DNA from: a virus
Reading direction: 5' to 3' (one strand)
DNA length: 21,762 bases
Virus record (IMG/VR): IMGVR_UViG_3300017762_000094
Span: 1 to 21,762 of that record
Within the stretch, counting starts at the first letter, position 1. Every line of letters begins with the position of its first letter. The position numbers were made by a program, and so were the translations under genes. Under the pieces are notes generated by a model. The model saw nothing but the letters and a program-made list of their open reading frames with translations. It searched no databases and was not told the DNA's origin. Shown piece by piece: positions 6,352-21,003 of the stretch.

Positions 6352-7299
6352 ATGAACTTCAGAGAGTTTAGTAAGAATTTAACAGAAGGACCTAAGTACG
6401 ATGACGAAAGGGGTCGTGTAAATAAAGGGAGTTCAGTAAGACAGGGTGATAAACTTCCTATGAAGAACCACAAGCCTATGCAGAGAAAGGCATCGGGCGA
6501 TCCATCTGGTAGTGACCATAAAGTAAGAACAAAAGACGGCAGAAAGAATACAATCACATTGGATAAGAAGCACCCTGCAGTCAAAGGTGCTGTGTCTCGT
6601 AATCAGGCATATGGTGGTGAGAGTGAGCAACAATATAACCCTCTCAAGTATCGTAAAATCAAACAGGAGCTTAGAGACAAAGGTGGGCAGATCAAAGTAC
6701 CTGGCAAACCACCTTATAAGTCTGCTGATAATAATTACACAGTGATCAGAGGCAAAGACGCTTATGATAACTGGAAGCCCGACTCCGCAGATATGGATGC
6801 AGTCGAGAAGTTAAAAAAGAAGAACTTAGAGAAAGCTTATAAAAAAGATGCCAAAGATTACCCTAAAATTGAGGAACAAACAATGAATTTTACAGAGTGG
6901 CAAGATTCACTTTGTTCGCCACTTTATGAGACGGACGAAAACCCCAAGTGTCCTCCTGGTTATAAGTGGAATAAGAAACAGATGAGCTGTGTTCCCAAGA
7001 CAGAGAAAGATGACGTCAGTAAGAATAACAGCAAGGATAGACACCCCGGTAATGGACCCGGTTACCACACTATTGGTTCTCACGGAATGAACGGTGCCCC
7101 TTATGCTTATGAGGAGCCTGCAGCATCAGATTCTGTTTCAGAATCTCACGATTATGATAAGGAAGATGAAGACGAAAAGAAGTTCAAAAAGGATGATGCC
7201 AAAATGAAGTATGGTAAGGAGGGCAAGCCTTCATCACTGCGCCCTGGTGAAGTTCGTAAATATAACAAAGAAACAGGTAAGTGGGAGAGTAACAAGTAA
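6352..7299 (+). CDS. Hydrophilic protein with capsid-targeting-like N-terminus
   Basis: A 315-residue, strongly charged, low-hydrophobicity protein that looks largely disordered. The N-terminus M-N-F-R-E-F-S-K-N-L-T-E-G fits a capsid-targeting peptide ending in an LTE site for the gp21 prohead protease. A second similar start, MNFTEW, occurs at residue 178 (base 6883) behind a GAGGA ribosome-binding site, so an internal 138-residue product or a fusion of two units is possible. Residues 200-213 hold a C-x12-C motif (CPPGYKWNKKQMSC, then VPK) that recurs in the nucleotidyltransferase at 18882. The C-terminal part is an acidic/basic polyampholyte. It has its own late promoter and its stop overlaps the next start (TAATG). 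It is probably a head-internal or other virion protein; no enzymatic domain is visible. Confidence 0.75.
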   Translation: MNFREFSKNLTEGPKYDDERGRVNKGSSVRQGDKLPMKNHKPMQRKASGDPSGSDHKVRTKDGRKNTITLDKKHPAVKGAVSRNQAYGGESEQQYNPLKYRKIKQELRDKGGQIKVPGKPPYKSADNNYTVIRGKDAYDNWKPDSADMDAVEKLKKKNLEKAYKKDAKDYPKIEEQTMNFTEWQDSLCSPLYETDENPKCPPGYKWNKKQMSCVPKTEKDDVSKNNSKDRHPGNGPGYHTIGSHGMNGAPYAYEEPAASDSVSESHDYDKEDEDEKKFKKDDAKMKYGKEGKPSSLRPGEVRKYNKETGKWESNK

Positions 7300-9587
7300 T
7301 GAAGAGTTTCTCAACTTACATTGCAGAACGCAAGGGCGAGAAAGCTCATCGTGATGCTGTAGCAATGGGTCTTCAGTACAAAGGCTTTGGTTATTGGGCA
7401 GATCCCCAGACAGGTGAAGCAAAGTATAAGACTGTGAACGATAACCTCGTTCCTGTTGAAGGCGATGTGGAGTCAGATCTCTATAAGGGTGATGACGTCG
7501 AAGGAGATCCTGCTGCCTCAGGTGGTGGACAGGGACAGATGGCTGTGCCTGGTGGTGCCGCTGCCGGTGCTTTACCTCCTGTAGTTGGAGATGGAAGTGG
7601 GTTAGGTGGCCCTGCTGATGGTATGGATGCTCAGGCACCTAAGAACTCTGGTTGGGAGGCAGGTCCAGAAGGTGACACGTGTGTTGGTGGACAGAAACCT
7701 GGTGAGATTGCTAAGGACGTGTTTGTTGGTAAGACAAATTATGTGAATTGGACTGCTGGTCCTGAAGGTTCCAATGCAATGACAATGGAGCTCGGTGAGA
7801 TGAGGAGATGGATCACCGAGGGTACATTTACAAAAGAACTTAGAAGAAAGCAAGCAGCAGACCAAAAGATTCGTGATATTGAAGATGGAGTAAAAAGAAG
7901 TGCACCAGATGATGAAACTGCGGGCAAAATCAAACGAATGATTGCCAGAGGTGAATTGGATGCAAGTAAGATGAAGGCAGCTGGATTTGTGGCTCCAAAA
8001 ACAGAACCACAATTCTCACCTTCTGTTGCTCCTGGTCCTCACACTGATGATGAAAGTGGTGGGATGGTGAGCGCTCCAAAGATGATGCAGCGTAGACCTG
8101 AAACAGTTCCTCCAGAACCAACAGGTCCAGAACAAGGTCCTAAACGACCACTCAATCGTCCTGGCGCTGGCACAATGATGCGTCGTGCAATGGGTGCACA
8201 AAAAAATGATGGTGATGTATGGGCAGGTGACATTCAACCAGCAAGAGATGCAGTCCAGAAAGCTAAAGAGGGCGGTAATGATGTCGCTTTAGGGAACCAG
8301 ATTGCTCAGATGATGGCAATCAGAAACAATGATGAAGATAAAGGAACAGGACTTGATGCCACATTCAATCAGGATGAGCAAAAAAGAGTTGAAATGTTCA
8401 AAAAGATCCTCAGATTGCCTGCTGCACTGAAGGATGGAGAGGCAGTCAAGGGGTTGAATGAAGCAATCAAAGGACTCATCAAAAATCCAGACTTTGACTT
8501 AGATCAGGTTGGTGCAGACGATGATGAGGATTCTGATTCTTATTTGGATGAGGGTGCATTTGGTTCTGTGTTTGACGCTGGTGATGCAGTCATCAAGAAA
8601 GGTCAGTTGGGTCCTAAGGAGATCCAAGCTCTTTATGCAATGAGGGACTCACCTTACTTCCCTGATCTTATCAATGCAAGGTTTGATGGTGTGTTCAAAC
8701 ATCAGTCATCAGAATATAATAATCCTCTTCAGAAACCCTCTCGCGCAAGAGGACAGGATGGACAGGCAGCAAACGACTATTGGGATCCCCAAGATCAATC
8801 TGAATGGGAAGATAAGTATCCCAGTGCTGCTGGAACTTATGCGATGTCCAAAGCAAAGGGTGGACCTTTGTATCAGATGTGGGATGAGTTGACTCCTGAA
8901 GCACAAGAGAAAGCAAAGCGTCAGTTCTGGGAAGCAAGAGGGCAACTTCATCAGGCAGGCATTTCACATAACGATATGCACGATGGAAACATTTTTGTTG
9001 ATGAAGAAGGAAATGTTCAGATTATTGACTTAGGACTCGCTAATGACAATCCATTGTCCGCTCTTATGGAAGGAATGGGTGGAATGAATTTTGAAGAGGG
9101 TGAGGATTATCAACTTGGTAATTATATGGGTGGTTCAGGAGCTCCTGAATCCCTGAGACAAAGAATGTTAGATAATCTTGAAGGTGTTATAGAAATGATT
9201 CAGGATCAGTGGTCTCTAGATGGTGCTGATTATGATGATTATGATGAGGATGAAGATTACTCAGCTAAAATGTCTGACGGTACTGAGATGATAGACAGAA
9301 TGAGACAAGGGCAGATCAGAATGCAACCTGATTCATTAGAATTGATGGAAACATATCTACCTCTACTTCAGAATAAAGACACTGTGATGTCTCTTATCAA
9401 GAGACTTTATCAGAACATGGGTGTGGAAGATGACGAAGAAGATTCCAGTGAGGTTGGTCAGATGTTACAATCTATTAAAAAACCTGAGATTGGTGGATTC
9501 AGTAGTGCACTTGACAGACTAAGAGGATTGGGAGTAAATACAACTCGGATGGATAAAGTCAAACAAGCACTTGATATGGATGACTAA
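7299..9587 (+). CDS. Large protein with kinase domain; candidate injected head protein
   Basis: A 762-residue multidomain protein. Residues 1-11 (MKSFSTYIAER) closely match the T4 capsid-targeting sequence, with IAE as the likely gp21 cut. Residues 24-53 (GLQYKGFGYW, DPQTGE, TVNDNLV) form a small module shared with the HNH protein at 9886. Residues 70-310 are low-complexity Gly/Pro/Ala and charged linker with another possible protease site (ITEG, 172-175). Residues 417-580 are a protein-kinase-like fold: glycine loop GAFGSV (419-424), VIKK with candidate ATP lysine K433, catalytic loop HNDMHDGN (557-564; D559 and N564), and DLG (577-579) for metal binding. The key residues are intact, so activity is plausible. 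The region after 600 is acidic and helical. The start overlaps the previous stop by one base. It is likely packaged and injected to phosphorylate a host target (inference). Confidence 0.85.
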   Translation: MKSFSTYIAERKGEKAHRDAVAMGLQYKGFGYWADPQTGEAKYKTVNDNLVPVEGDVESDLYKGDDVEGDPAASGGGQGQMAVPGGAAAGALPPVVGDGSGLGGPADGMDAQAPKNSGWEAGPEGDTCVGGQKPGEIAKDVFVGKTNYVNWTAGPEGSNAMTMELGEMRRWITEGTFTKELRRKQAADQKIRDIEDGVKRSAPDDETAGKIKRMIARGELDASKMKAAGFVAPKTEPQFSPSVAPGPHTDDESGGMVSAPKMMQRRPETVPPEPTGPEQGPKRPLNRPGAGTMMRRAMGAQKNDGDVWAGDIQPARDAVQKAKEGGNDVALGNQIAQMMAIRNNDEDKGTGLDATFNQDEQKRVEMFKKILRLPAALKDGEAVKGLNEAIKGLIKNPDFDLDQVGADDDEDSDSYLDEGAFGSVFDAGDAVIKKGQLGPKEIQALYAMRDSPYFPDLINARFDGVFKHQSSEYNNPLQKPSRARGQDGQAANDYWDPQDQSEWEDKYPSAAGTYAMSKAKGGPLYQMWDELTPEAQEKAKRQFWEARGQLHQAGISHNDMHDGNIFVDEEGNVQIIDLGLANDNPLSALMEGMGGMNFEEGEDYQLGNYMGGSGAPESLRQRMLDNLEGVIEMIQDQWSLDGADYDDYDEDEDYSAKMSDGTEMIDRMRQGQIRMQPDSLELMETYLPLLQNKDTVMSLIKRLYQNMGVEDDEEDSSEVGQMLQSIKKPEIGGFSSALDRLRGLGVNTTRMDKVKQALDMDD

Positions 9588-9599
9588 ATGTGTTATAAT
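9571..9599 (+). promoter_or_regulatory. Sigma70-type promoter (TTGATA-17-TATAAT)
   Basis: TTGATA (9571-9576), a 17-base spacer and TATAAT (9594-9599). The -35 box lies inside the last codons of the kinase gene. Its -10 region is part of the 20-bp repeat shared with the promoter at 5079-5107. Confidence 0.75.
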
Positions 9600-9610
9600 A
9601 AATAGGTAAA
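9591..9610 (+). repeat. 20-bp promoter repeat, copy 2
   Basis: Identical to 5099-5118. This copy lacks the left hairpin arm present at the first site, so only the promoter core is conserved. Confidence 0.9.
9597..9604 (+). promoter_or_regulatory. T4-type late promoter motif AATAAATA
   Basis: AATAAATA overlaps the sigma70 -10 box and ends 18 bases before the ATG at 9623. An AGAGGA ribosome-binding site lies between them (9613-9618). Confidence 0.6.
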
Positions 9611-9622: not shown

Positions 9623-9859
9623 ATGAAGAACTTAAACGACTTTATTTCAGAAGAAGATAAGAAGAAAGAAGGCATCAAGCCTGAAAAGAGTAATAATCGT
9701 GGAGCTGACGATAAGAAATATGTTCGTCTGATGGAGAAGTATAAGAGAGCTCGTCGTGGTGATAAGGATGAAGCTAACAAGATTCTGAAGCAGGCGTTTA
9801 CCTTGGCAAAAGATGGTGATGTTTCTAAGCAGGCAATCACAGCAGGCGCTTATATTTGA
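9623..9859 (+). CDS. Small basic candidate internal head protein
   Basis: A 78-residue Lys-rich protein. The N-terminus MKNLNDFISEED matches the capsid-targeting pattern, with ISE as the probable gp21 cleavage site. Removal of the first 10 residues would leave a basic helical protein of about 68 residues (YVRLMEKYKRARRGDKDEAN). Size, charge and leader resemble the T4 internal proteins IPI-IPIII, small basic proteins packaged with DNA and injected, one of which (IPI) blocks a host restriction system. No catalytic motif is visible. It has a good AGAGGA ribosome-binding site and its own dual early/late promoter, so it can be expressed independently of the kinase gene. Confidence 0.75.
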   Translation: MKNLNDFISEEDKKKEGIKPEKSNNRGADDKKYVRLMEKYKRARRGDKDEANKILKQAFTLAKDGDVSKQAITAGAYI

Positions 9860-9885: not shown

Positions 9886-12165
9886 ATGTCACGCTGGAGT
9901 GTTTGGAGTAGGGGATTAGAAGATAAGCCAAGGTTTCTTAGTAACTTTGTAAAAGAGGCTTTAGACACAGGCAACCCATCTGTTGGTTCTTCTCCTGCTG
10001 AGAGAGCAAGGCAATTAGGACTTCAATCTGACGGAAGTGGTGGTTATATCGATCCTGAGACAGGACAAAAAGTTGCTGCCACAGTCAACGGTGAGTTAGT
10101 GTTCTATGACAACAGAGGACAGGGCGGTGGAGCAGTTTCTGACGGTTCAGGAGGTGCTGAATTAGCAAATGCTCAACCGACCTGGCAAGATCCTGCCACT
10201 GGAATGGCGATCACACCACCGTCTCGTCCAGAGTCTCCTGAAGAACAGATGGCAGTACCAGATCCAATTCCTGCCTCTGCTCCTGCTGGTTATGATTCGT
10301 TTATGAATCAACAAAGGATGAGAGCTTATGCTCAGAAGAATGCAAATAATATGCAGAACAATGTGGATCAGGCTGCCGCAACACCACATGCTGCTGGAAC
10401 TGTTCAGGGTATCAATCCTATTGGTCCTGATGGCAATGTTATGGGTGGTTCTGATATTGAAGGAGTCCAAGAAGGATTAGGTGACAATAAGGAGTTGAGA
10501 GATAAATCTGGAATTTTACCGAAACCAGGTAAAACCTTTCAACAGATGCGTCAAGAGTTACAAAGATCACAAGGCGAACAAGGCCCATTTACCCCGCAAC
10601 AAGATCTCCAAACAAGAATCGATACTCGTTTGTCAGATAAGGGCGGAATTCAAGATCAGGCAGAAGTTTCCAAAAAAAGAGAACAGATGTTGAAGCCACT
10701 ACAGGCTTTGGCAAATCAAGAGGGTACAGATCCCAGAGTTATGCACAGACTGACAAGTCTTGGTTCCAGATTATATAAGGATGAGATTGGTGGAAGGAAA
10801 GATAAAAAATTGAATCAAATGAATGATGAAATTATTGATGGTGTAATTCAAAATGGTGATAAAGTAAAAGAAGTATTTGCTCCTGATCCAGAAACAGGAC
10901 TGCCTAATGTTCAAGCGATTGCACAACACTTAGAAGAAACAAAGGAATTTCCAGACACTCCCATCGAAGCAAGTAAAGCTTTATGGAAATCGATTCCACC
11001 AGAAATGAGAAGTAATTTTGGTGGGCAAGGCAAGAAAGGTTTTGATGCTTTCCACGATTGGGTTTGTCGTGATGGAAAGTGTGCAATGTCTGGTGCTTGG
11101 ATGCATCCTGATTTCATCAACGAAGATCATCAAATCCCTCACTCAACTACGAGAAATCCAGGACTTTCTGATGAGGATCGCGATTACATCAAATCTACAA
11201 AAAATCTTTGGGCAATTCATAAGTCATTAAATCAAGTGATGGGTGAAAAAGAGAAAGGCCAAACAATTGATGACATCACATCAGAATATGGAGGCGATAA
11301 AAGAATTGAAGGATTGCAAGATTATCTGTTCTCTTTGAATAAAGAAAGAGAAGAAATTCATGGTAATCTACCTAAAATGCTTGAAGCTTCATTACTTGAT
11401 AGTGACGATGATGGAAAATTCTTGAAGGAAGGTGTAGATATGGACGGCGTTGATGGTGCTATTGAGATGGGACAACATCGACAAGAAACCATCATGCAAG
11501 ACATCATGGATGCTTTCAAATCTAGATTTGATCCAGATGACTTGATTGGAAATAGAAAGGTTCCTGAAGAATCAAAAGCCAAAAAGGCAAAACTTCAGAA
11601 AGCCAAAAAGGTAATTGAATCCATCAAAGGTAAAGGTGGAATTGAACCTTTATTCAGGGCATTGGGAATTCCAACAACTTTTAGAGCTGACTCACAAAGA
11701 GGTGGATCATTCACTGGAATGGCACCAATTCTTCGCGGGGTTATGGGACAAATTGCGGGACAACCAAAAGAGAAACAGAGAGAGATTATCAAACAATGGA
11801 GTGAGATGCTTTCTGCCAGCAACAAGAGAGCTGGATCTAAGTGGGATGAAATTCATGGTGATGACACACTTGCAGGATTAGACAAGGACGGAAGACTTGC
11901 AAAAGAGTTAGAATATAAGAAAGAAGCCGCTCGTCATGTTGCTCAACAGGCACAAGAAATGGGATTCCTTGATATGGATTCTCTTGAGGACGGAACTGAT
12001 AAGAAAGGACTCCTTGAACTCCTTAATAGAGATACCCTTTATGAACAAAATGAAGAATCCATGATTAATTTCCAGGATGATTTCGACCTCAGAGAATTAC
12101 TTGAACTTCTTATGGGATTGATGGGTGATGAAGGAGAACAAGAGTTGACAGATACACCTTTCTAG
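9886..12165 (+). CDS. Large HNH-nuclease-domain protein; candidate packaged protein
   Basis: A 759-residue multidomain protein. The first ATG is followed by RFLSNFVKEA at residues 16-25, resembling a capsid-targeting peptide displaced by about 15 residues, with VKE as a possible gp21 site. Residues 45-73 (GLQSDGSGGYIDPETGQ, TVNGELV) match the N-terminal module of the kinase protein. A long Gln/Pro/Gly linker follows. Residues 357-368 (DTPI...ALWK) begin a core shared with the HNH protein at 13109. An HNH domain lies at 394-450: C394-x4-C399, SGAW, E413-D414-H415-Q-I-P, N440-LWAIH445 and N449, the expected metal and catalytic residues. The C-terminus is helical and acidic. The large context argues against a homing endonuclease. 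A SPPY DNA methyltransferase follows directly. A DNA-cutting role is inferred from the motif. Confidence 0.85.
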   Translation: MSRWSVWSRGLEDKPRFLSNFVKEALDTGNPSVGSSPAERARQLGLQSDGSGGYIDPETGQKVAATVNGELVFYDNRGQGGGAVSDGSGGAELANAQPTWQDPATGMAITPPSRPESPEEQMAVPDPIPASAPAGYDSFMNQQRMRAYAQKNANNMQNNVDQAAATPHAAGTVQGINPIGPDGNVMGGSDIEGVQEGLGDNKELRDKSGILPKPGKTFQQMRQELQRSQGEQGPFTPQQDLQTRIDTRLSDKGGIQDQAEVSKKREQMLKPLQALANQEGTDPRVMHRLTSLGSRLYKDEIGGRKDKKLNQMNDEIIDGVIQNGDKVKEVFAPDPETGLPNVQAIAQHLEETKEFPDTPIEASKALWKSIPPEMRSNFGGQGKKGFDAFHDWVCRDGKCAMSGAWMHPDFINEDHQIPHSTTRNPGLSDEDRDYIKSTKNLWAIHKSLNQVMGEKEKGQTIDDITSEYGGDKRIEGLQDYLFSLNKEREEIHGNLPKMLEASLLDSDDDGKFLKEGVDMDGVDGAIEMGQHRQETIMQDIMDAFKSRFDPDDLIGNRKVPEESKAKKAKLQKAKKVIESIKGKGGIEPLFRALGIPTTFRADSQRGGSFTGMAPILRGVMGQIAGQPKEKQREIIKQWSEMLSASNKRAGSKWDEIHGDDTLAGLDKDGRLAKELEYKKEAARHVAQQAQEMGFLDMDSLEDGTDKKGLLELLNRDTLYEQNEESMINFQDDFDLRELLELLMGLMGDEGEQELTDTPF

Positions 12166-12173
12166 CTTATAAT
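12145..12173 (+). promoter_or_regulatory. Consensus sigma70 promoter of methyltransferase 1
   Basis: TTGACA (12145-12150), a 17-base spacer and TATAAT (12168-12173): both hexamers are perfect. The -35 box is inside the end of the HNH gene. There is no ATAAATA late motif here; AATAAAGG occurs instead. This implies early transcription by the host polymerase. Confidence 0.85.
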
Positions 12174-12197: not shown

Positions 12198-13079
12198 ATG
12201 CTCGACATTAACAAAGTCCATCTGATGTCCAACATCGATGGCATGGCTGCCATGGATGCAGAATCGGTGGATCTTGTCGTTACATCACCTCCTTATGACA
12301 ACCTTCGTTCTTACAATGATTCGTCATCCTGGAACTTTGAGATGTTTAAGCAGGTTGCTGATGGATGTATGAGGGTCCTCAAACCAGGTGGTGTCATTGC
12401 CTGGAACGTGGCTGATGCTGTCGTTCAGGATATGCATGGTAAGAAGTCTGGTTCCTCTAAGACTGGAACCTCTTATCGTCAATGCATTTATTTCCAAGAT
12501 GGCGGAATGAACTTTCATGATGAAATTGTTTATCAGAAGCATGCTCCACGATTTGCTTCTGGTGTCAAATCTCTTCGTTATTCTGATGTTACTGAATATG
12601 TGTTCATTATGTCTAAAGGACGTCCTAACATCATCAACCTGATTCGTGACAAGCCCAACAAAGGAGCTGGTAAGACATTTAAGCGTGATGGTGGACGTAA
12701 CGTTGATGGATCACGTAACCGTGCTGGATCTGATGCTAAGACTGGTGTCATTCATGAGTTTGGTGTTCGTGAGAACATCTGGCGTTATGTGACATCCTTT
12801 GGTGCTGGACAGAATGATAAGAGAGCTTATGAACATCCTGCTCTGATGCCAATGAACCTGGCTCTGGATCTCATCAAGTCTTATTCTAATGAAGGTTCTC
12901 TTGTCTTAGATCCATTCATGGGTTCTGGAACCACAGCTCGTATGGCTCACTCAGTTGGACGTAATTACATTGGATTTGAAATTGATCCAACCTATCATCA
13001 ACTCTGTGAAACAATTACATCTGATGCTATCAATAAGATGGCAGAAGAGGCTGCTGTTGATTTGACATCCTTGATGTGA
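12198..13079 (+). CDS. DNA methyltransferase, beta-class (SPPY)
   Basis: A 293-residue S-adenosylmethionine-dependent DNA amino-methyltransferase. Motif IV TSPPY (29-33) comes near the N-terminus and motif I LDPFMGSGTT (237-246) near the C-terminus, the circularly permuted beta-class order. The SPPY form methylates N4 of cytosine or N6 of adenine; sequence alone does not decide which. VLKPGGVIAWN (60-70) and IGFEID (about 257-262) are the expected flanking strands. The central region (150-205) probably includes target recognition. Length is normal. It sits between two HNH-domain genes with a strong consensus promoter of its own, so it could modify phage DNA against host restriction or against the neighbouring nucleases (inference). 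Confidence 0.9.
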   Translation: MLDINKVHLMSNIDGMAAMDAESVDLVVTSPPYDNLRSYNDSSSWNFEMFKQVADGCMRVLKPGGVIAWNVADAVVQDMHGKKSGSSKTGTSYRQCIYFQDGGMNFHDEIVYQKHAPRFASGVKSLRYSDVTEYVFIMSKGRPNIINLIRDKPNKGAGKTFKRDGGRNVDGSRNRAGSDAKTGVIHEFGVRENIWRYVTSFGAGQNDKRAYEHPALMPMNLALDLIKSYSNEGSLVLDPFMGSGTTARMAHSVGRNYIGFEIDPTYHQLCETITSDAINKMAEEAAVDLTSLM

Positions 13080-13082
13080 TAA

Positions 13083-13090
13083 AATAAATA
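13083..13090 (+). promoter_or_regulatory. T4-type late promoter motif AATAAATA
   Basis: AATAAATA ends 18 bases before the ATG at 13109, followed by AAAGAAAG. The same AATAAATAAAAGAAAG string occurs near 19784-19799. A TTGACA at 13062-13067 lies 17 bases before TAAATA, so a weak early promoter is possible too. Confidence 0.6.
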
Positions 13091-13108: not shown

Positions 13109-14884
13109 ATGTTTAGCGGTTGGTTGAAGAAAGAATCAGGAATTGAAGAACCTACTGGGTTAGAAGCCGCTAAGCAAAAGATTCTTGGTGAGGCAGAAGA
13201 AACAGTTGGTCCTCTTGTAAGACGAGGAACAAATCCACAGAGAGAGGGTCAACCAGACCTCAACAAAGTGATCTCTGATGTTAGGGGAACAAAACCGCCG
13301 ACACCACAACCCGCGGCATCACCGGAGATCGAAAGACAATCTGGACAACCAGCACAAAATCTCGATGATGCAAATGAAATTCATCAACAAGTCGGTTCTG
13401 GTGTTCTCAGTGAACGTCAACAGTTAATTGGTGACTTTAGATCAAAGTTGAGAGAATCTTTTGATCTCGAAGATGATATGGTTGATACTCAAATGAGACC
13501 CTTAAGGGATTCAATCAGAAATATAATGGCAACAAGAAATCAAGACAGTGGTGGTTCAGAGGATGAAATGAGAGATCAATTTATTTCATTGATGGCGCTC
13601 GCCAATACTTACGATGGTAGAATTCGTCATGGTGAAGGTAAGAGGACAATGTTTTATGAGGATGCACAAAGATTAATGGATCCGGTTGTACAACAATCCT
13701 TACTTGAAGGATATGGAGATGGATCACCAGAACAAATTGAAAAGTTTGTTAATTCAAGGAAAGTGGTCGATACTCCGATGGCAGATGTTAATGCATTGTG
13801 GAAAGTTCTCCCAGATAAGTTTAAACAGGCTCTTGGGTCGGGCAGTCTTGGAAATTCAATTAAATTACTGCAAGACGATGGCACGATTAAAAACGAAGAT
13901 GCAAGAAAATTACACTTTGGTGGAGATGACAACAGAGTTACTAATGGATCAAACTTAAGAAAGAAACTTTTACTTAAGTTATTCCTTGATCAAGCTGGTC
14001 GTGATGGTTATACAGGCAATGAATTAGATCCCAGATACATGGAATTGGAACATGTTCGTGGTGTTAATAATTTAATGGATGGAGAAGTTGCTCCAACTTT
14101 AGAACAAGTGATGCAACGAGAAAATTTAAGAAATTGGCTTTGGATTGGAACTGGAGTTAACAATGAGAAGTCCGACCTTGATATGAAAAAATTTCTTGAA
14201 AACACTCAAGAGAAACATAGTAAAATGGCCAAGGAAGATTACATTGATCTCGAAGCTTCAGACAAAACATTCCAAGAGAGACAGTCTGGGATGTCATCAC
14301 TCTTAGAAGATTTTATTCAAAACAACGAATTTACTGAAAATGCAACTCCAGATGCAATCCAAGCATTGTTTGATAATGAACTGAATGAAAGTGAAGCGAT
14401 GCATCGGAACGGAATCAAAAAAACACCAGTCCAACTTGGAGACAAAATGAGAAAAGCTTTGGGTATGGTAAAAGATCGTAAACTAACTCGGTCTCAACTC
14501 AAAACTCAAAAAGAATTGTTTAGACCTCTAATAATGAATGCTCTCTCACTTCCCCCAGAGGAAAGATCAGGAATGATTGAAAAATATAATCAATTATTTC
14601 ACTCTGCAGCTGATAGAACAGCTGAACTCAGTTCAATGGGTCCTGAAGGTTTAACTCAAGATGGAGCAATAGAAGGATCTGGGAAGAGTAAAGGAAAGTT
14701 GAATGAAAAAGGAACATGGGAAAAAATGTTCTATAAATCTTTGGCTGATTCCGGGTTAATTACTGCCGAAACACTTAAAAAACATCTACAATCTAAAGAG
14801 TTTGATAAGTTTAATAAATTGCTGTTTGAAGGAATTTATGAAGAACAAGACTGGGTTGACAAAAGAGAGTTCATTCTGTTATAA
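13109..14884 (+). CDS. HNH-domain protein, paralogue of the 759-residue protein
   Basis: A 591-residue soluble protein. The N-terminus (MFSGWLKKESGIEEPTG) is not a clear capsid-targeting peptide, although IEE could be a gp21 site. A Pro/Gln-rich linker (60-100) is followed by helices. Residues 221-245 (DTPM...NALWKVLPDKFKQALG) align with 357-380 of the HNH protein at 9886 (DTPI...KALWKSIPPEMRSNFG), so the two are related beyond the nuclease motif. The HNH-like domain at 301-356 reads YTGNELDPRYMELEH315V, N342-WLWIGTGVN351-NEKSD; the cysteine pair of the other copy is absent. The C-terminal 200 residues are helical and Lys/Glu-rich. A late promoter motif precedes it and an NPPF methyltransferase follows. 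Nuclease activity is inferred from motif only. Confidence 0.8.
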   Translation: MFSGWLKKESGIEEPTGLEAAKQKILGEAEETVGPLVRRGTNPQREGQPDLNKVISDVRGTKPPTPQPAASPEIERQSGQPAQNLDDANEIHQQVGSGVLSERQQLIGDFRSKLRESFDLEDDMVDTQMRPLRDSIRNIMATRNQDSGGSEDEMRDQFISLMALANTYDGRIRHGEGKRTMFYEDAQRLMDPVVQQSLLEGYGDGSPEQIEKFVNSRKVVDTPMADVNALWKVLPDKFKQALGSGSLGNSIKLLQDDGTIKNEDARKLHFGGDDNRVTNGSNLRKKLLLKLFLDQAGRDGYTGNELDPRYMELEHVRGVNNLMDGEVAPTLEQVMQRENLRNWLWIGTGVNNEKSDLDMKKFLENTQEKHSKMAKEDYIDLEASDKTFQERQSGMSSLLEDFIQNNEFTENATPDAIQALFDNELNESEAMHRNGIKKTPVQLGDKMRKALGMVKDRKLTRSQLKTQKELFRPLIMNALSLPPEERSGMIEKYNQLFHSAADRTAELSSMGPEGLTQDGAIEGSGKSKGKLNEKGTWEKMFYKSLADSGLITAETLKKHLQSKEFDKFNKLLFEGIYEEQDWVDKREFILL

Positions 14885-14885
14885 T
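14856..14885 (+). promoter_or_regulatory. Consensus sigma70 promoter of methyltransferase 2
   Basis: TTGACA (14856-14861), an 18-base spacer and TATAAT (14880-14885), both hexamers perfect. The promoter overlaps the last codons and stop of the HNH gene. Its -10 region is the 17-bp repeat also found before the first methyltransferase. Confidence 0.8.
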
Positions 14886-14907: not shown

Positions 14908-15774
14908 ATGTCAGATTTCTCTAAATCAATCTCTGATGCTTACTTTACGCATCCAGAGAGTGTTACATTCATTCACAGCATCTTAGCTGATGCTGGTTGG
15001 CTTGAAGGTTCTGTTCTGGAACCTTGTTGTGGCAATGGACATCTAATCAAAGGATTAGATAATGTCACAGCTTGGGATCTCAATCAATATGAGATTCCAT
15101 TGGATCGTGTTGGCAACTTCCTTGAGCAAGAGCCAGATCAGAAGTTTGATTTGGTTCTAACTAATCCTCCATTTGGATTCTTAGGTGGACTTGCCTGTGA
15201 CATCCTTAATCACGGCACTCTGTTCTCTGACAGGGTGGCAATTGTGTTACCTCAGTGTTTCCGTAAAGTTCAAAGGATTGACAGAATCAACCCTTACTTT
15301 CATCCTGTTGGTGATTACAATCTTCCTAATGAGACTTACATTCTTCCAGATGGCACTGAGAAATATGTAAGAACCTGTTTCCAAATGTGGGAACGCCGTG
15401 ATTACAAACGTAAGAAGTTTGCCAACACCTCTTATGAAGAGTTCTTCACTCAGGTGCCTTATGAAGAGGCTGAATATTATCTGAGAACACAAGGCTCAAC
15501 TGCTGGTTGCATCCTTGAGGGGCTTGCTTATCCTAAGACTGGTAAGGTTTACAATCATAACTCAGGACGTTTCATGAAAAGAGGTAAGGATGACATTCTT
15601 GCCCATGACTGGACAAAGGTCGCCAGGTTTGCTTCTGGTGCCCCATCCATTGGACTTCATGACATTGCATGGGGATTACGTTCTCCAGACATTGAATCTT
15701 ATCTGGTTCATGGAATCATGAGTGATCTTATCAGTGGTTTTTATGATGAAACTGGTGGCGTTCTGCCAATCTAA
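14908..15774 (+). CDS. DNA adenine-N6 methyltransferase-like protein (NPPF)
   Basis: A 288-residue class I methyltransferase with motif I LEPCCGNGHL (37-46) near the N-terminus, AWDLN (55-59) as the acidic residue that binds SAM, and motif IV TNPPFG (85-90). The NPPF form is characteristic of N6-adenine DNA methyltransferases. YFTHPE (12-17) resembles the N-terminal motif X. Motif order is I then IV, so the class differs from the beta-class enzyme at 12198 and the two are not recent duplicates. The C-terminal 150 residues probably carry target recognition. It follows the second HNH gene and shares a 17-bp promoter repeat with the first methyltransferase. The target sequence cannot be predicted. 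Confidence 0.85.
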   Translation: MSDFSKSISDAYFTHPESVTFIHSILADAGWLEGSVLEPCCGNGHLIKGLDNVTAWDLNQYEIPLDRVGNFLEQEPDQKFDLVLTNPPFGFLGGLACDILNHGTLFSDRVAIVLPQCFRKVQRIDRINPYFHPVGDYNLPNETYILPDGTEKYVRTCFQMWERRDYKRKKFANTSYEEFFTQVPYEEAEYYLRTQGSTAGCILEGLAYPKTGKVYNHNSGRFMKRGKDDILAHDWTKVARFASGAPSIGLHDIAWGLRSPDIESYLVHGIMSDLISGFYDETGGVLPI

Positions 15775-15797: not shown

Positions 15798-16637
15798 ATG
15801 GGTTTTAGAACCTTCTACGAACAGACTGGAGGAGCTCAAGAAATTCTGGGCTCTGAAGGGCAACCAGTAAATAAAGGTGTCGTTGAGGTGTTTGGTAGAC
15901 ATAACCCACCTCATGATGGACATCTGAAGACTTTAGATAAGGCAAATGATATTGCACAGAATGAAGGTGCAGATATGTCTCTGTACACTTCCAGAAGTCA
16001 AGATCCTAAGAAGAACCCACTACCTTTCAGAGAGAAGCTTGGGTTTCTAAAAGAGTTGGCTCCTCAATATGCTGACAACTGGGATGACGATGAAGGCATT
16101 AGAACCGTCTTAGGTGCGGCAGCAAAAGCAGGACAGAAGGGTTATAAGGACTTCCACTTCGTTGGTGGGAGTGACAGGGTTGGTGCCATGGGTGATTTGC
16201 TAAGGCGTTATAATGGAAACCTTTATGACTTTGAGAACATCTATTCTCACTCTGCTGGTGAAAGAGATGAAGAGGATGAAGGTGTTGGTGGATTATCAGC
16301 ATCTAAACTGAGGAAGTTTGCTGAAGGTGGCGACTTTGAAGGATTCAGTGGAGGCATTGGTGGTGGACAGAAGATGGAACTGGCACGAAGAATGTTTGAA
16401 GCAGTCAGAAAATATGGACAGAAGAATGAAGACTGGGAAGTGGCGCCAAGATATAACAAAGAGTTTATCAGAGAGATGTATCTTGATGGACAACTTTATG
16501 AGATTGGAGACATCGTTGAGTCTCTCTCAACTGGATTGATTGGTAAGGTACATCGTTGTGGAACTAATCACCTTATCTGCGTGACAGAAGAAGGTATTAT
16601 GTTCAAGGACTTTGTTCACGACGTTCAGTTTGTATGA
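15798..16637 (+). CDS. HxGH nucleotidylyltransferase-domain protein
   Basis: A 279-residue protein with a cytidylyl/adenylyl-transferase fold (the NMN adenylyltransferase and pantetheine-phosphate adenylyltransferase superfamily). Visible are the phosphate-binding motif GRHNPPHDGH (33-42, with H39-x-x-H42), FVGGSDR (121-127), and the second signature LSASKLRKFA (166-175), equivalent to the ISxxxxR motif. The N-terminus MGFRTFYEQTGG loosely fits the capsid-targeting pattern. The last 50 residues (GQLYEIGDIVESLSTGLIGK onward) form a small beta-rich domain separate from the enzyme fold. The substrate is not determined; NMN or nicotinate mononucleotide would link it to NAD and to the ADP-ribosyltransferase-like neighbour, but that is speculation. 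The stop overlaps the next start by 4 bases. Confidence 0.85.
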   Translation: MGFRTFYEQTGGAQEILGSEGQPVNKGVVEVFGRHNPPHDGHLKTLDKANDIAQNEGADMSLYTSRSQDPKKNPLPFREKLGFLKELAPQYADNWDDDEGIRTVLGAAAKAGQKGYKDFHFVGGSDRVGAMGDLLRRYNGNLYDFENIYSHSAGERDEEDEGVGGLSASKLRKFAEGGDFEGFSGGIGGGQKMELARRMFEAVRKYGQKNEDWEVAPRYNKEFIREMYLDGQLYEIGDIVESLSTGLIGKVHRCGTNHLICVTEEGIMFKDFVHDVQFV

Positions 16638-18472
16638 TGATTGATTTTAGTAACGTATCAAGACAATTAGACGAAAACCCAAGAGTCCTTGATAATCCAC
16701 CAGGATTTGAAGATAGAATACGTCAAGGTGGCGCAGGACGACAGGGAAGAAATACTGAAGGTGATGTCATAAATTTCATGAAGGATCACATCAATCCCCA
16801 TGGAAATTACAAAGTTGCAGGTGGCAATAATATAAAAACAGATTTTTATGATGATGCTGAAACGGGAGATCCAAAAGATAATACTAATTATTCAGTCAAG
16901 ATGACTAAGAATCCCGATGTTCCTGTAAAGGTTCAACAATCAGGATTTCAAAATGGTTCTCGTGGAGCAATGAATAAGCTTCTCATTCCAGGATCACGTG
17001 ACGATGATCTTATGGGTGCGAGACTTGATACACCTGAGGGCAAACAAAAGTTCATCCAGTCAATTAGAGGTAATCCATTGATGCAAGCTTTTGTTATGAA
17101 GTTTGGTGCAAACATCCAAGGAGAGAATGGTAGGAACTTAAGCCTCAGTAACTTTAAGAATGTTTTTGCTAATGGAATGAATCAACAAGAACTCAGTCAA
17201 GAGCAACTGAGAATGTTGGAAAGGATTAATGAAGCTCAAAGGATGAAACAAAATCCTTTTATGAGAACTGAAGAAATGCAGGACATGTTTCCTGATCATT
17301 TTAAACAATTAATGACACACCTGAATGATAATAAGGCAGGAATCTTTGATCAGATGGTAAGAAAACATGATTCCAGATATCCATCTAAATCATATCAATA
17401 TGGAGATCCGTCTCCTGTAGATAAGATGATTCATGTTAGAAATAATAAAGGTACAAATGGTTTAAACGGCAAAATTGATATTAGAGATATGAGCGACGAA
17501 GAAGTTGCAGAGTCTATGAAGATGGTTGATTGGTATGGTGATGGAAACAATCTCTATCTTGCCAATCAAGAAACGGATGATATTAATAAGAGACTTCTAG
17601 ACGTATATTCTATGACTGAAGATGCAGACTCATGGGAATTACTTGCAGGAACAGGTGATAGACCACAGGGACAACGCAAAGGTGCTCAACCAGGATTGTT
17701 AAAATCAACTATGGGCATTGATGAAGAAATGTTAGATGAGGTATTTGGACCTGCTGAGTTTTCTGCTAATATTGGACCGGCGCCTCGTGGAGATATTAAG
17801 AAACATGTCATTAAAAACGTAATAAATAATATAAAAGAAGAAGTTATGAACTTCAATAAGTTGCATTTTAGTGAAACCTTAGAGCAAGAAAAAATTGCAT
17901 CTGAGAAAGCCAATATGAGTGGTGAGAAACAGAGAAACATGTCTCGCCAACAAAAACAAAAAGACATGATGGCTTCTAAGACTGGATTAGCTCAAAAGTC
18001 TAATGTGGTCTATGCTTCAGAGGATTACTTTAAGCAATTGCGTGATAATGTAGAGATGTTTAAGGCTCATGAGGAAGCTAAGTATGACTGGAGAAAAACT
18101 TTAAATGAGGGTCGCCCTCCCAAAGAAGACCCAGAAGACGAAGGAGAACATCCTTATGTCGCTGTCATGCCACATAAGGATTCTAAAGAGAAAGAAGTCA
18201 AGAAGAAGTATGAAAAGAATAAAGAGTCTGAAGACGCCGCAAAAGCCCTCATGAAATCACAAGGTATCGTAGGAGAAACCATGGAATTTGACGAACTTAT
18301 TGGAAATCTAATCGAGTCAGAGAAACCTTTTGATCCTGATGCACGCAGGAAGCAAAGAGGAGCAATGTTAAAGAAACAGGCAGAGAAAGCTCCTAAGGAC
18401 ACAAGAACAGACGCACAGAAGATGGCAGACGCCACTGGACCTCGTCCTGGTTCACGTTTCAGAGGAGACTGA
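16634..18472 (+). CDS. 612-residue virion-type protein, possible PD-(D/E)xK nuclease
   Basis: A multidomain hydrophilic protein starting at an ATGATGA overlap with the previous gene. The N-terminus (M)MIDFSNVSRQLDENP resembles a capsid-targeting leader with LDE as gp21 site. Residues 39-91 (E42 in a helix, KTD70F, NYSVK89MTK) look like a restriction-endonuclease-like core, but the usual Asp/Glu before xK is Ser87, so nuclease function is uncertain. Two internal leader-like peptides occur: MNFNKLHFSETLE at residue 405, with a late promoter motif 17 bases upstream, and MEFDELIGNLIES at residue 550, behind an AGGAG. The protein may therefore be a composite of packaged units or encode nested products. 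The C-terminus is highly charged and probably disordered (KKEVKKKYEKNKESEDAA region). It overlaps the next gene by one base. Confidence 0.75.
   Translation: MMIDFSNVSRQLDENPRVLDNPPGFEDRIRQGGAGRQGRNTEGDVINFMKDHINPHGNYKVAGGNNIKTDFYDDAETGDPKDNTNYSVKMTKNPDVPVKVQQSGFQNGSRGAMNKLLIPGSRDDDLMGARLDTPEGKQKFIQSIRGNPLMQAFVMKFGANIQGENGRNLSLSNFKNVFANGMNQQELSQEQLRMLERINEAQRMKQNPFMRTEEMQDMFPDHFKQLMTHLNDNKAGIFDQMVRKHDSRYPSKSYQYGDPSPVDKMIHVRNNKGTNGLNGKIDIRDMSDEEVAESMKMVDWYGDGNNLYLANQETDDINKRLLDVYSMTEDADSWELLAGTGDRPQGQRKGAQPGLLKSTMGIDEEMLDEVFGPAEFSANIGPAPRGDIKKHVIKNVINNIKEEVMNFNKLHFSETLEQEKIASEKANMSGEKQRNMSRQQKQKDMMASKTGLAQKSNVVYASEDYFKQLRDNVEMFKAHEEAKYDWRKTLNEGRPPKEDPEDEGEHPYVAVMPHKDSKEKEVKKKYEKNKESEDAAKALMKSQGIVGETMEFDELIGNLIESEKPFDPDARRKQRGAMLKKQAEKAPKDTRTDAQKMADATGPRPGSRFRGD
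17821..17828 (+). promoter_or_regulatory. Internal T4-type late promoter motif AATAAATA
   Basis: AATAAATA occurs inside the 612-residue gene, 17 bases before an in-frame ATG (17846) that encodes a leader-like MNF peptide and is preceded by AAGAAGAAG. The spacing matches the late motifs placed before genes in this window (17-21 bases). Chance occurrence in AT-rich coding sequence is the alternative. Confidence 0.35.
17846..18472 (+). CDS. Possible nested gene: C-terminal product of the 612-residue frame
   Basis: Same frame and stop as the gene at 16634, giving 208 residues starting M-N-F-N-K-L-H-F-S-E-T-L-E. Support comes from the leader-like N-terminus, the late motif 17 bases upstream and a purine-rich stretch (AAGAAGAAG) before the ATG. 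The product would be a highly charged helical protein comparable to small internal head proteins. Phage genes for scaffold and internal proteins do sometimes have internal starts. It is listed as a hypothesis; the longer frame is open throughout and remains the primary gene. Confidence 0.3.
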   Translation: MNFNKLHFSETLEQEKIASEKANMSGEKQRNMSRQQKQKDMMASKTGLAQKSNVVYASEDYFKQLRDNVEMFKAHEEAKYDWRKTLNEGRPPKEDPEDEGEHPYVAVMPHKDSKEKEVKKKYEKNKESEDAAKALMKSQGIVGETMEFDELIGNLIESEKPFDPDARRKQRGAMLKKQAEKAPKDTRTDAQKMADATGPRPGSRFRGD

Positions 18473-18885
18473 TGAAAACATTTGAAATGTTTATGGAGGA
18501 AGCTCCTCAAAGATTAAAGATGAAGAGGTTATATCATGGAACTGATAAGAACTCTTCAGATAGTATTGACAAGGGTGGTTATGATACTTCCAAGGGTGAG
18601 AACAAACTTGCAGGTGATGGAATCTATGCCTCTAAAAAGAGAAAGATTGCATCAGATTATGCAAACACCAGGTCAAGCGCCAGAGGTTCTACACCAAGAA
18701 CCAAAGAGTTCCTAGTCCCCAAAAATAACCTAGGCACCAAGAAAGCAAGACTCAGAGGTGGCAAGCCAGTTCCAAGTAAATCAGATAAAATTCAGAAGGT
18801 GGATCTTAACAATTATCTACTGAAGGATAAGGATGCAAATAGATTCTCCGTTTCTAGACAACCAATTATTAGAAGCAAAAAATGA
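18472..18885 (+). CDS. Small ADP-ribosyltransferase-like protein with capsid-targeting leader
   Basis: A 137-residue protein. Residues 1-11 (MKTFEMFMEEA) are an excellent match to the T4 capsid-targeting sequence MKTYQEFIAEA, with MEE as the predicted gp21 cut. The rest resembles the PARP/Tpt1-like (H-Y-E) class of ADP-ribosyltransferase folds: LYH22GT, then an S-I-x-x-x-G turn (31-35), D49-G-I-Y52-A-S with A-S-D-Y-A (60-64), and TKE79F as the candidate catalytic glutamate. These enzymes transfer ADP-ribose from NAD+ to protein or nucleic acid. T4 Alt, also packaged and injected, modifies host RNA polymerase. The domain is small but covers the main motifs. The C-terminus is basic. The start overlaps the upstream stop (TGATG) and an AGAGGAGA ribosome-binding site precedes it. 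Confidence 0.75.
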   Translation: MKTFEMFMEEAPQRLKMKRLYHGTDKNSSDSIDKGGYDTSKGENKLAGDGIYASKKRKIASDYANTRSSARGSTPRTKEFLVPKNNLGTKKARLRGGKPVPSKSDKIQKVDLNNYLLKDKDANRFSVSRQPIIRSKK

Positions 18886-19781
18886 AACTTCTAATTTCTG
18901 AACTGAAGACAACCCTTCAGTCACACGATACTCTCAATCCTAAACTATTTACTGATAAGAAGTTAGATCCTGAAGTTTGGCAGGCGCTAAATAAAATCGG
19001 CAAAGAATGGGCTTCTTTTGCCAATATCCCATCAGCCGCAATAAGGGATGTAATCGTCGTTGGCGGCAACGCAAACTATAACTACACTAAGCACTCAGAC
19101 ATTGACTTACACCTCGTGGTCGATAAGAAGGGTATTAAATGTCAAGGCTTAGTTGATGACTACTTACAATCAAAGAAACAACTTTGGGCTTTAACTCATG
19201 ACATCACAGTCAAGGGACAGCCTGTCGAACTATATGCGCAAGATTTTAGAGATCCCTTCCGACAAGGTCAGGGAGTCTATTCTCTCAAGTCTAATCGATG
19301 GCTCCAAGAGCCAGAGAAAGTCAAGTTCAACAGTAGATCCCCAGAAGTGGTGAATAAGGTTAGGGACATTCAGTTCCAAATCGATTCGTTAATAGATTCA
19401 AAATCAGATGACATCAGTGCATTCAAACAGATTAAGAATCGTTTGAAGGGAATGCGTGCGTCTGCAATTGAGAAAGGTGGCGAGTATGCACCCGAAAACC
19501 TTGCGTTCAAAGAACTGCGTAATCGTGGAACTTTAGATAAGATGAACAAATATCTTCGTAACTTAGAAGATGCAGATCTGTCTCTGTCTGAAGGACACAA
19601 GAAATGTAAAGATGGTAAAGAATGGGATAAAGATAAAAAGAAATGTGTGAAGAAGAAACGATCCCACAGGGCTTATGCAGGTGGATATTGGTTAAGTGGT
19701 CATAATCACTCTGGAGATACTGGTGAAGAAGGTACAGGTGGAGACGGTGGTGGTGACGGCGGAGGTGGTGGTGGAGAGTGA
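18882..19781 (+). CDS. Polymerase-beta-type nucleotidyltransferase with glycine-rich tail
   Basis: A 299-residue protein overlapping the previous stop (ATGA). The nucleotidyltransferase signature is clear: V-V-G61-G62-N, then HSD73-I-D75-LHLVVD and the third carboxylate E116 (PVELYAQD), the metal-binding triad of the DNA polymerase beta / MNT / antibiotic nucleotidyltransferase superfamily. The fold transfers AMP or another NMP to a small molecule, RNA or protein; the target is unknown. Residues 130-230 are helical. LSE (235-237) could be a gp21 site, followed by C242-x12-C255 (CKDGKEWDKDKKKC, then VKKK), the same cysteine motif as in the protein at 6352. The tail is Gly/Asp-rich (GGDGGGDGGGGGGE). 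It is last in the run 16634-19781, suggesting co-expression with the ADP-ribosyltransferase-like protein. Confidence 0.85.
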   Translation: MKLLISELKTTLQSHDTLNPKLFTDKKLDPEVWQALNKIGKEWASFANIPSAAIRDVIVVGGNANYNYTKHSDIDLHLVVDKKGIKCQGLVDDYLQSKKQLWALTHDITVKGQPVELYAQDFRDPFRQGQGVYSLKSNRWLQEPEKVKFNSRSPEVVNKVRDIQFQIDSLIDSKSDDISAFKQIKNRLKGMRASAIEKGGEYAPENLAFKELRNRGTLDKMNKYLRNLEDADLSLSEGHKKCKDGKEWDKDKKKCVKKKRSHRAYAGGYWLSGHNHSGDTGEEGTGGDGGGDGGGGGGE

Positions 19782-19791
19782 TAAATAAATA
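19781..19791 (+). promoter_or_regulatory. Double T4-type late promoter motif
   Basis: Two overlapping ATAAATA motifs (19781-19787 and 19785-19791) begin at the stop codon of the nucleotidyltransferase. The second ends 21 bases before the ATG at 19813. No sigma70 -35 box was found upstream, so this looks purely late. Confidence 0.6.
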
Positions 19792-19812: not shown

Positions 19813-20376
19813 ATGCCATCAAGAGCAACTAAATTAGACGATATCGGAACAGCAAAAGCTGCTTCTGATTCTTATGATGTAGAAAATATCTTTCTCTCTG
19901 ATGAGGGTTGGGTTTATCGTCATTATAAAACATCAGACAAATCAAAATTCTGGGACGAAATCATCGTTGCAGGTGAAGTCGATTCTACTCTCACCATCGA
20001 TGGTGTAGCAAATACTCCAGTTGATGCAGTCGCTGCTGGAAGCCCAACATTTGAAAGCGTTGCTGGCGACGGAGCTGGTGACACCAAACAAGACATTGAA
20101 TATTCCGCTGATTTCTCTGCATCTGCTCCAACTCCCCCTGCCACAGGTCCCGCCGCGTCAGTATCCTTAGTTGGAACAACTTCAACTGAATCGGACGGAT
20201 CAATCACAGCAACTGCAACAACTAGTAGCAATGGTTCAGGATTGACAGTGACATATGATGTTACATCAAATGTCGCATCTAACCTGGCGATCGCCGTTGC
20301 TGGATCTGGGTATCAGGCTGGTGATTCCTTCACAGTTGCTGGAGATACAGGTGTTACAGGAACAGTTGCCATCTAA
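19813..20376 (+). CDS. Probable virion structural protein (fibre/decoration-like)
   Basis: A 187-residue acidic protein. The N-terminal 60 residues (VENIFLSDEGWVYRHYKTSD, then KFWDEIIVAGEV) look like a compact beta-domain of a type I associate with cyanophage virion proteins. The rest is very rich in Thr, Ser, Ala and Gly with alternating beta-strand patterns (VSLVGTTSTESDGSITATAT, LAIAVAGSGYQAGDSFTVAG), as in tail fibres, Ig-like decoration domains or pectin-lyase-like repeats. There are no cysteines, signal peptide or membrane segment. It has a late promoter, consistent with a structural gene. The exact location in the particle cannot be told. A DUF7207-like gene follows 3 bases after its stop. 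Confidence 0.7.
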   Translation: MPSRATKLDDIGTAKAASDSYDVENIFLSDEGWVYRHYKTSDKSKFWDEIIVAGEVDSTLTIDGVANTPVDAVAAGSPTFESVAGDGAGDTKQDIEYSADFSASAPTPPATGPAASVSLVGTTSTESDGSITATATTSSNGSGLTVTYDVTSNVASNLAIAVAGSGYQAGDSFTVAGDTGVTGTVAI

Positions 20377-20751: not shown

Positions 20752-20802
20752 TTATAGTGACCTTTCTCAGTGTCAGTACAACCATAGCACAATTATCACA
20801 AA

Positions 20803-21003
20803 ATGTCAAGATTTAAGTCAATTCAAGAGAGAAAAGAAAGCATTCTTGAAGATATGGGATGTGCTTCATGTGGCGGAGGGATGTCTGCTGGTGATGGTGG
20901 ATTCAGTGGTGACTCCCCCTCAGAAGGACCCACAGCAGGTTACGATCCTCTTATGAGTAAGTTGGATAAGGTTCGTAAGAAACGCAAGAAGAAAGTGATT
21001 TAA
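20803..21003 (+). CDS. Small basic protein with leader-like N-terminus
   Basis: A 66-residue protein. The first 20 residues (MSRFKSIQERKESILEDMGC) include IQE and ILE, both possible gp21 prohead-protease sites. The next segment is a short CASCGGG cysteine pair with a Gly/Ser-rich linker, then TAGYDPLMSKLD and a strongly basic end (KVRKKRKKKVI). The composition fits a DNA-associated internal head peptide or a small virion protein. The two cysteines alone are too few for a zinc site without a partner. Its stop overlaps the next start by one base (TAATG). The family is not recognised with certainty. Confidence 0.65.
   Translation: MSRFKSIQERKESILEDMGCASCGGGMSAGDGGFSGDSPSEGPTAGYDPLMSKLDKVRKKRKKKVI

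Follow-up and report, generated by a model that had tools for sequence, protein, structure and literature searches.

A 21,762-base fragment of a T4-like cyanophage (IMG/VR record IMGVR_UViG_3300017762_000094; the whole stretch is called the window here) probably holds, at about 6.3–21.0 kb, a module of late-expressed proteins that serve as cargo of the phage head. The window has uvsX, gp41 and MazG at its left end and gp61 at its right end. In the relatives examined the interval between MazG and gp61 contains variable genes, and the module fills most of it. About ten of the module proteins probably travel in the virus head and are delivered together with its DNA. A preliminary description, made from the sequence alone, had proposed an unusually large set of head-packaged, injected proteins in this region. 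This proposal holds for the most part, and the region offers more of interest than was noted then: absent from the description were a shared domain, here called GL, the swapped C-terminal domains, the pairing of nuclease and methyltransferase genes, and the contrast of late and sigma-70 promoters. The candidate cargo open reading frames (ORFs, named by their first position) are:

6352..7299, + strand: ORF 6352, 315 aa (amino acids), with the N-terminal peptide MNFREFSKNLTE; homology to S-CREM2 gp15 (E 1e-27) covers the C-terminal part, which starts near residue 178 (MNFTEWQDSLCSPLYE).
7299..9587, + strand: ORF 7299, 762 aa, with the capsid-targeting peptide (CTS) MKSFSTYIAE, a GL domain, a long linker and a kinase core.
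9623..9859, + strand: ORF 9623, 78 aa, with the CTS MKNLNDFISE; homologue of S-CREM2 gp13.
9886..12165, + strand: ORF 9886, 759 aa, with an SRW leader, the CTS-like PRFLSNFVKEA (residues 15-25), a GL domain and a variable C-terminal domain.
13109..14884, + strand: ORF 13109, 591 aa, with a likely HNH domain; homologues in loci L012-L014.
15798..16637, + strand: ORF 15798, NMNAT/cytidylyltransferase-like; its homologues S-CREM2 gp154 and S-SCSM1 gp281 are virion proteins.
16634..18472, + strand: ORF 16634, 612 aa, a PD-(D/E)XK-like N-terminal part fused to a gp155-like part.
18472..18885, + strand: ORF 18472, 137 aa, the CTS MKTFEMFMEEA followed by an ADP-ribosyltransferase (ART)-like domain.
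18882..19781, + strand: ORF 18882, nucleotidyltransferase-like, with 72% identity to S-CREM2 gp156.
20803..21003, + strand: ORF 20803, 66 aa, resembling the N-terminal arm of the major capsid protein; its homologue gp160 is in the virion.

Packaging of these proteins is well supported by homology, and we hold it with high confidence. The S-CREM2 virion proteome comprises 52 proteins identified by mass spectrometry in CsCl-purified phage (PMC10665884), and the list includes gp6, gp12, gp13, gp14, gp15, gp154, gp155, gp156 and gp160. We compared the window ORFs by BLAST with all proteins of S-CREM2 and S-SCSM1. A virion-detected homologue was found for 8 of the 10 ORFs within 6352-21003 that have any homologue there: ORFs 9886 (in its N-terminal part), 9623, 7299 and 6352 correspond to S-CREM2 gp12, gp13, gp14 and gp15, ORFs 15798, 18882 and 20803 to gp154, gp156 and gp160, and ORF 16634, over its C-terminal part alone, to gp155. 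ORFs 19813 and 20380 have homologues, none of them virion-detected, and the same comparison gave a virion-detected homologue for none of seven ORFs outside the module. The S-SCSM1 genes bear per-gene 'virion protein' labels (PMC9602691), and the label is found on 6 of 7 genes of the homologous interval against 41 of 275 elsewhere (p=1e-4).

The targeting peptides quoted in the preliminary description are all present in the sequence, with two small corrections: LSNFVKEA corresponds to residues 18-25 of ORF 9886, and ORF 16634 begins MMIDFS. A position-specific matrix was trained on 28 unique N-terminal 11-mers of GL-domain proteins from loci L024-L082 (59 IMG/VR loci), with the window's own gene families left out. 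All window ORFs were scored with it, and 5,595 internal segments of S-CREM2 proteins served as the null. ORFs 7299 and 18472 reached p=0.0002 each, ORF 9623 p=0.001, and ORF 9886 p=0.0014 when the matrix was scanned over the first 30 starts. Nine of 11 homologues of ORF 9886 had p<0.01, and most outscored it. ORF 6352 was borderline (p=0.009). ORFs 20803 (p=0.03) and 16634 (p=0.13) showed no excess over chance once about 25 ORFs were allowed for, and the matrix did not recover the peptide in ORFs 18882, 15798 and 13109 either. The methyltransferase ORF 14908 scored p=0.005 although its packaging is unexpected, which makes the noise level of the matrix visible. Among the seven proteins to which the peptide had been attributed, it was confirmed in ORFs 7299, 9623, 9886 and 18472, is doubtful in ORF 6352, and was not borne out in ORFs 16634 and 20803. 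The idea of a large packaged set stands on the virion-detected homologues of eight ORFs, and the presence in that set of kinase, ADP-ribosyltransferase-like, nuclease and nucleotidyltransferase domains is supported.

The peptide is also commoner among virion proteins. Over the complete protein sets of S-CREM2 and S-SCSM1, a strict pattern anchored at the protein start, composed after the motif was seen, occurs in 6 of 99 virion-detected and 1 of 402 other proteins (Fisher p=0.0003). A loose regular expression gave no clear enrichment in S-CREM2 (6 of 52 virion proteins against 7 of 167, p=0.085), and we therefore used the independently trained matrix and start anchoring. Matrix enrichment was p=0.0065 in S-CREM2 alone and p=0.07 in S-SCSM1 alone (2 of 47 against 1 of 235). 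Around residue 56 of the major capsid protein precursor stands LLTE↓A or FLAE↓A, judged from its sequence likely to be a site of the same type as those of the peptide, FLTE↓A and FLSE↓A. Outside the module, the S-CREM2 virion protein gp136 (L010 30302-31015), encoded beside the terminase genes, has the N-terminus MQTFSMFFSED. A 106-aa S-SCSM1 protein (L103 44215-44535) has the strong peptide MKTFKQFMSES and no virion label; it is small and may have escaped detection. The S-CREM2 virion protein gp6 (L006 23766-25010), of the SAM lyase family, carries MKDFDSFLEE and is likely an anti-restriction enzyme with the same targeting peptide.

The virion detections could instead come from abundant late proteins that stick to virions or co-purify with them without being head cargo. 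The authors of both proteomes raised co-purification for their enzymes (PMC10665884, PMC9602691), and the S-SCSM1 virion labels include even a RegA-like repressor. Detection was nevertheless selective, with the methyltransferase gp8 and many replication proteins unlisted in S-CREM2 virions. Related families recur across three proteomes, and the strict start-anchored peptide marks six virion proteins against one other. We regard this explanation as very unlikely and head packaging as the better account.

Directly after the peptide, ORFs 7299 and 9886 have in common about 34 residues, the GL domain (for example MGLQYKGFGYWADPQTGEAKYKTVNDNLVPV in ORF 7299):

7353..7454, + strand: GL domain of ORF 7299, residues 19-52 (2e-15).
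10000..10104, + strand: GL domain of ORF 9886, residues 39-73 (7e-15).

Pfam scans gave no convincing family at this site. An iterated hidden Markov model found the domain in 95 ORFs of the retrieved loci, a count that includes overlapping copies of the same contigs, and nearly all 95 start with an MKxFxxF(L/I)xE-type peptide. Its partners are kinases, NMNATs (the commonest), SRW-type polymorphic proteins, HNH proteins and nucleases, and several kinases carry two GL domains. All three GL-domain proteins of the two full proteomes are virion proteins. The S-SCSM1 NMNAT, which has both peptide and GL domain, has the top-scoring N-terminus of that genome and is a virion protein. The S-SM1 cytidylyltransferase T4-GC190, experimentally identified as a virion protein (PMC3037559), likewise combines the N-terminus MKKFSAFLNEA with a GL domain. 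The GL domain probably acts with the peptide in packaging or exit.

Behind the GL domain, the enzyme parts can be exchanged. In the ORF 9886 family the first ~150 residues are constant and the C-termini are unrelated (alignment A1). A direct scan for ORF 9886 relatives found none; the N-terminal alignment A1 recovered 67 loci. The C-termini are HNH-like in S-N03, MA01, S-CREM2 and L015, PD-(D/E)XK-like in L016, L023 and S-B68, and of another type in L090 and L092; S-CRM01 and L025 have none. The homologues of ORF 13109 in L012-L014 have a longer leader followed by the same C-terminal part, and in L012 and L013 this leader is a GL domain. The ORF 9886 family has the architecture of polymorphic effectors, with a constant trafficking N-terminus and exchanged C-terminal enzyme domains.

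The packaged proteins might alternatively be internal proteins with a structural or DNA-condensing role, their enzymatic domains being for the most part inactive or undelivered. T4 internal proteins contact packaged DNA, and several module proteins have long low-complexity or charged stretches. Against this, the catalytic motifs of the kinases and the HNH residues have been kept between widely diverged proteins, and the C-terminal swaps exchange entire enzymes. The kinase of ORF 7299 matches Pkinase at E 5e-7, slightly short of the curated cut-off; HNDMHxGN and DLGL are conserved in its core, and the family alignment A5 keeps the catalytic residues (HNDMH..N, DLG and the Lys). A purely structural role seems improbable to us, and we favour the reading of the module as delivered enzymes. 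For ORF 18472, the match to ART-PolyVal (1.6e-4) is under the curated cut-off. ORF 20803 is possibly a capsid-arm mimic; it shares GFxG...GPxAGxDPxM with the major capsid arm of S-CREM2 and S-SCSM1 (E 2e-4 and 7e-5).

Two module proteins contain candidate HNH nuclease regions:

11086..11280, + strand: HNH-like motif region of ORF 9886, with EDHQIPHS at residue 413 and then NLWAIHKSLNQVMGEK; recognised by motif alone.
13994..14203, + strand: putative HNH nuclease domain of ORF 13109, YTGNELDPRYMELEHV...NWLWIGTGVNNEKSDL.

Three different C-terminal families share H...NWxW...NxxK, and the H, NWxW and NxxK are invariant between ORF 13109 and its distant relatives in L015, L090 and L092. When a profile of the HNH segment was run against about 220 proteins, S-CREM2 gp12 ranked first and gp177, an annotated HNH endonuclease, second. 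In a Foldseek search with a low-confidence model of this segment, used solely for the consistency of its matches, almost all of the top 20 PDB entries were HNH nucleases, mainly Cas9 HNH domains and also the Gme nicking enzyme. The HNH models PF13395 and PF01844 had no match in the window, an HNH profile gave none at the motif site of ORF 9886, PDB sequence searches returned nothing useful, and Pfam, PHROGs and PADLOC put no name on these domains. Since no curated family threshold was reached, the HNH assignment of ORF 13109, made from sequence and model, is likely rather than proven. The N-terminal part of ORF 16634 is related to L085 17361-18560 (4e-81). In several cyanophages the position directly upstream of the gene for NMNAT or DUF6267 is also taken by a PD-(D/E)XK-like protein, recognised by motif: S-SCSM1 gp282 (L104 39459-40793, with a virion label), P-HM2 (L002 8645-10135), P-SSM2 (L101 621-1298) and S-SM1 (L108 1255-2088).

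Each putative HNH-type nuclease gene of the window is followed by a type II methyltransferase gene:

12198..13079, + strand: ORF 12198, type II/orphan-type N6/N4 DNA methyltransferase (PF01555 3e-40; 1e-60).
14908..15774, + strand: ORF 14908, type II DNA methyltransferase (2e-16).

A methyltransferase gene adjoins a nuclease-type protein, or lies within a few genes of it, twice in the window, twice in L015, and in L012, L013 and L014; the same neighbourhood is found in L016, L023, L092, S-N03, MA01 and S-CREM2. In L012, L013 and L015 the homologous nuclease is likewise followed by a member of the ORF 14908 family, which in L014 stands one gene further on. Where SRW proteins have no nuclease domain (S-CRM01, L025, L026), no methyltransferase is found there. 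In S-CREM2, gp12, a predicted nuclease, is in the virion list and the methyltransferase gp8 is not. L016 has three methyltransferases in a row behind one nuclease-type effector, the second and third of them at 9473-11019.

HNH nucleases are frequent in homing elements. The nuclease and methyltransferase genes could therefore be selfish insertions, homing or mobile restriction-modification units that landed in a packaging module by chance, and the order and identity of the pairs do differ between relatives. On the other hand, many loci have the nuclease domain joined in frame to preceding targeting and GL regions, the fusion protein gp12 was found in virions, and the pairs use different methyltransferase families. 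We consider chance insertion unlikely and keep to the view that the nucleases belong to the cargo.

The two gene classes also differ in their promoters. The motif NATAAATA, reported as a late promoter for cyanophages (PMC2984593), occurs eight times on the + strand of the window and not at all on the other strand, and six of the eight copies lie 26-33 nt before ORFs 5131, 6352, 9623, 13109 and 19813. The promoters of the module are:

6325..6332, + strand: T4-type late promoter GATAAATA, 27 nt before ORF 6352.
9597..9604, + strand: late promoter AATAAATA, 26 nt before ORF 9623; an 11/12 sigma-70 match at 9571-9599 overlaps it.
12145..12173, + strand: perfect sigma-70 promoter TTGACA-17-TATAAT before the methyltransferase ORF 12198.
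13083..13090, + strand: late promoter AATAAATA, 26 nt before ORF 13109.
14856..14885, + strand: perfect sigma-70 promoter TTGACA-18-TATAAT before the methyltransferase ORF 14908.
19780..19791, + strand: two overlapping late promoters (GATAAATAAATA) before ORF 19813.

Across the loci examined, including the window, NATAAATA stands before 23 of 51 cargo genes, 0 of 15 methyltransferase genes and 0 of 14 replication-type genes. Sigma-70 matches of at least 10/12 were found in the same loci before 10 of 15 methyltransferases and before none of 18 nuclease-type genes. Since the contrast was first noticed in the window, this comparison is a follow-up and not a blind test.

Together these features suggest the following course of events. 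Late genes would yield precursor proteins, and a T4-like capsid-targeting peptide would recruit many of them to the prohead core. A gp21-type prohead protease would trim them after (L/I/F)xE, as at LLTE↓A of the capsid precursor. DNA would be packaged around the cargo, which would leave the head with it and enter the cell, a step that we consider probable by analogy. There, the kinase, NMNAT, ART-like and nucleotidyltransferase-like enzymes may alter host proteins and NAD. The phage genome would be methylated during replication and the endonuclease packaged, so that unmethylated host or competing DNA could be cut on entry; the methyltransferase, without a late promoter, would not be expected in the particle. 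For trimming, loading, entry and DNA cutting we infer from T4 and the chlorella viruses, and presence in virions was observed for the homologues.

The reading as restriction-modification, in which a restriction enzyme is delivered and its methyltransferase left out of the particle, is tentative, and we put it slightly below an even chance. A fuller version is a little more doubtful: swapped HNH or PD-(D/E)XK-like nucleases behind the peptide and GL domain may cut unmethylated host or rival DNA at entry, and the adjacent sigma-70-expressed methyltransferase may have marked the phage genome in the previous cell. Less probable again is that the packaged nuclease targets competing phages or plasmids and not the host chromosome, or that the methyltransferases only shield phage DNA. 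The polymorphism and swapping would fit a contest between phages, and the virion-associated proteins also include one of the SAM lyase family, a typical anti-restriction enzyme. However, the packaged restriction enzymes of chlorella viruses are thought to degrade host DNA, and they did not cause mutual exclusion. The T4 genes denA, denB and ndd are missing from cyanomyoviruses, which may need another route; that they degrade host DNA by one not yet described has been suggested.

Several points weigh against the proposed packaging and delivery of an enzyme set with paired nucleases. The virion detections concern homologues in phages other than that of the window, the S-CREM2 authors caution on carry-over of abundant proteins (PMC10665884), gp13 was detected by one unique peptide, and ORFs 9886 and 16634 match detected proteins over part of their length only. 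ORFs 13109, 15798, 16634, 18882 and 20803 have a weak targeting peptide or none. No nuclease family reaches the Pfam or PHROG threshold, and the PD-(D/E)XK calls, including that for the N-terminal half of ORF 16634, were made by motif and alignment. The structure models have low confidence, with a predicted local distance difference test score (pLDDT) of 47 for the C-terminal part of ORF 13109 and 51 for the HNH segment, and every Foldseek E-value is above 0.05. In L090 and S-B68 the nuclease-type domains have no methyltransferase next to them. The pairing counts are small, many of the loci are related to each other, and the promoter comparison was made after the pattern had been seen.

The module resembles the T4 set of IPI-IPIII and Alt, which are targeted by a CTS, processed by gp21 and injected. 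Both belong to T4-like phages with a prohead protease and late promoters, both include an ADP-ribosyltransferase-like protein (Alt in T4), and the peptide is of the same kind: MKxFxxFLxEA here and MKTYQEFIAEA in T4, as quoted in the preliminary description. T4 internal proteins are described as defence proteins having only the CTS in common. In contrast to the T4 set, the proteins here are more numerous and much larger, and there are a GL domain, kinases, NMNATs, and nucleases beside methyltransferases. Chlorella viruses package restriction enzymes and not methyltransferases, and degradation of host DNA begins within 5 minutes. As in the chlorella virus PBCV-1, a restriction-type nuclease would be in the particle with an unpackaged methyltransferase encoded next to it, here by homology and for a predicted nuclease; unlike the phage of the window, PBCV-1 is an algal virus with an unrelated particle and targeting.

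MuF polymorphic toxins of temperate phages (PMC5576092) keep a virion-linked N-terminal region and exchange the enzyme domains at the C-terminus, and in this the module is similar. Here, however, the leader is a T4-type CTS with a GL domain, and a methyltransferase would be the protective partner. Membership of the MuF group was rejected: MuF is a different N-terminal domain, and the Pfam scans gave no MuF match. Polyvalent proteins (Iyer et al. 2017, PMC5512222) are phage proteins that are injected with DNA and bear effector domains of ART and other types. The module has such effector domains as well, and it is to their ART-PolyVal family that ORF 18472 has its weak match; unlike their large multidomain chains, it consists of separate proteins in a gene cassette. 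The Dar proteins of P1 are likewise carried in the head and deal with restriction, but they shield phage DNA from host restriction, whereas this phage seems to carry the cutting enzyme.

Some neighbouring genes of the window are of interest in their own right. A type IV prepilin-like ORF (GFTLIELMVVVAIVGILSAVGLPEL), seen here in a cyanophage, lies at 3932-4336 and is followed by a second ORF at 4338-4910. The DUF6267 protein (ORF 5131, 5131-6324) has a KWDG (KxDG) motif like that of ATP-dependent ligases, and sigma-70 and late promoters overlap upstream of it. PHROG 455 spans both the DUF6267 protein and NMNAT, which suggests a fusion in other phages. ORF 5131 as cargo is unsupported despite its late promoter: it is without the peptide, and its distant homologues are absent from virions. 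One gene adjoins the module:

19813..20376, + strand: ORF 19813, a head/decoration-type protein; its homologue gp158 was undetected in S-CREM2 virions.

Virion kinases and NMNATs have already been reported by others, as has gp12, as a 'Cas9-like' protein. In a limited search of the open-access literature we found no account of a targeting peptide on these proteins or of the GL domain, and none of the polymorphic architecture, the nuclease–methyltransferase pairing or the promoter contrast. If our reading is true, the module ties together unexplained virion enzymes, the absent T4 genes for host DNA degradation and the methyltransferases beside large uncharacterised proteins, and packaged nucleases could be the missing route of host DNA breakdown in cyanomyoviruses. 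The capsid-targeting peptide with the GL domain would then be a simple sequence rule for delivered effectors in marine phages, and the module would give a testable model of how these phages take over the cell in the first minutes.

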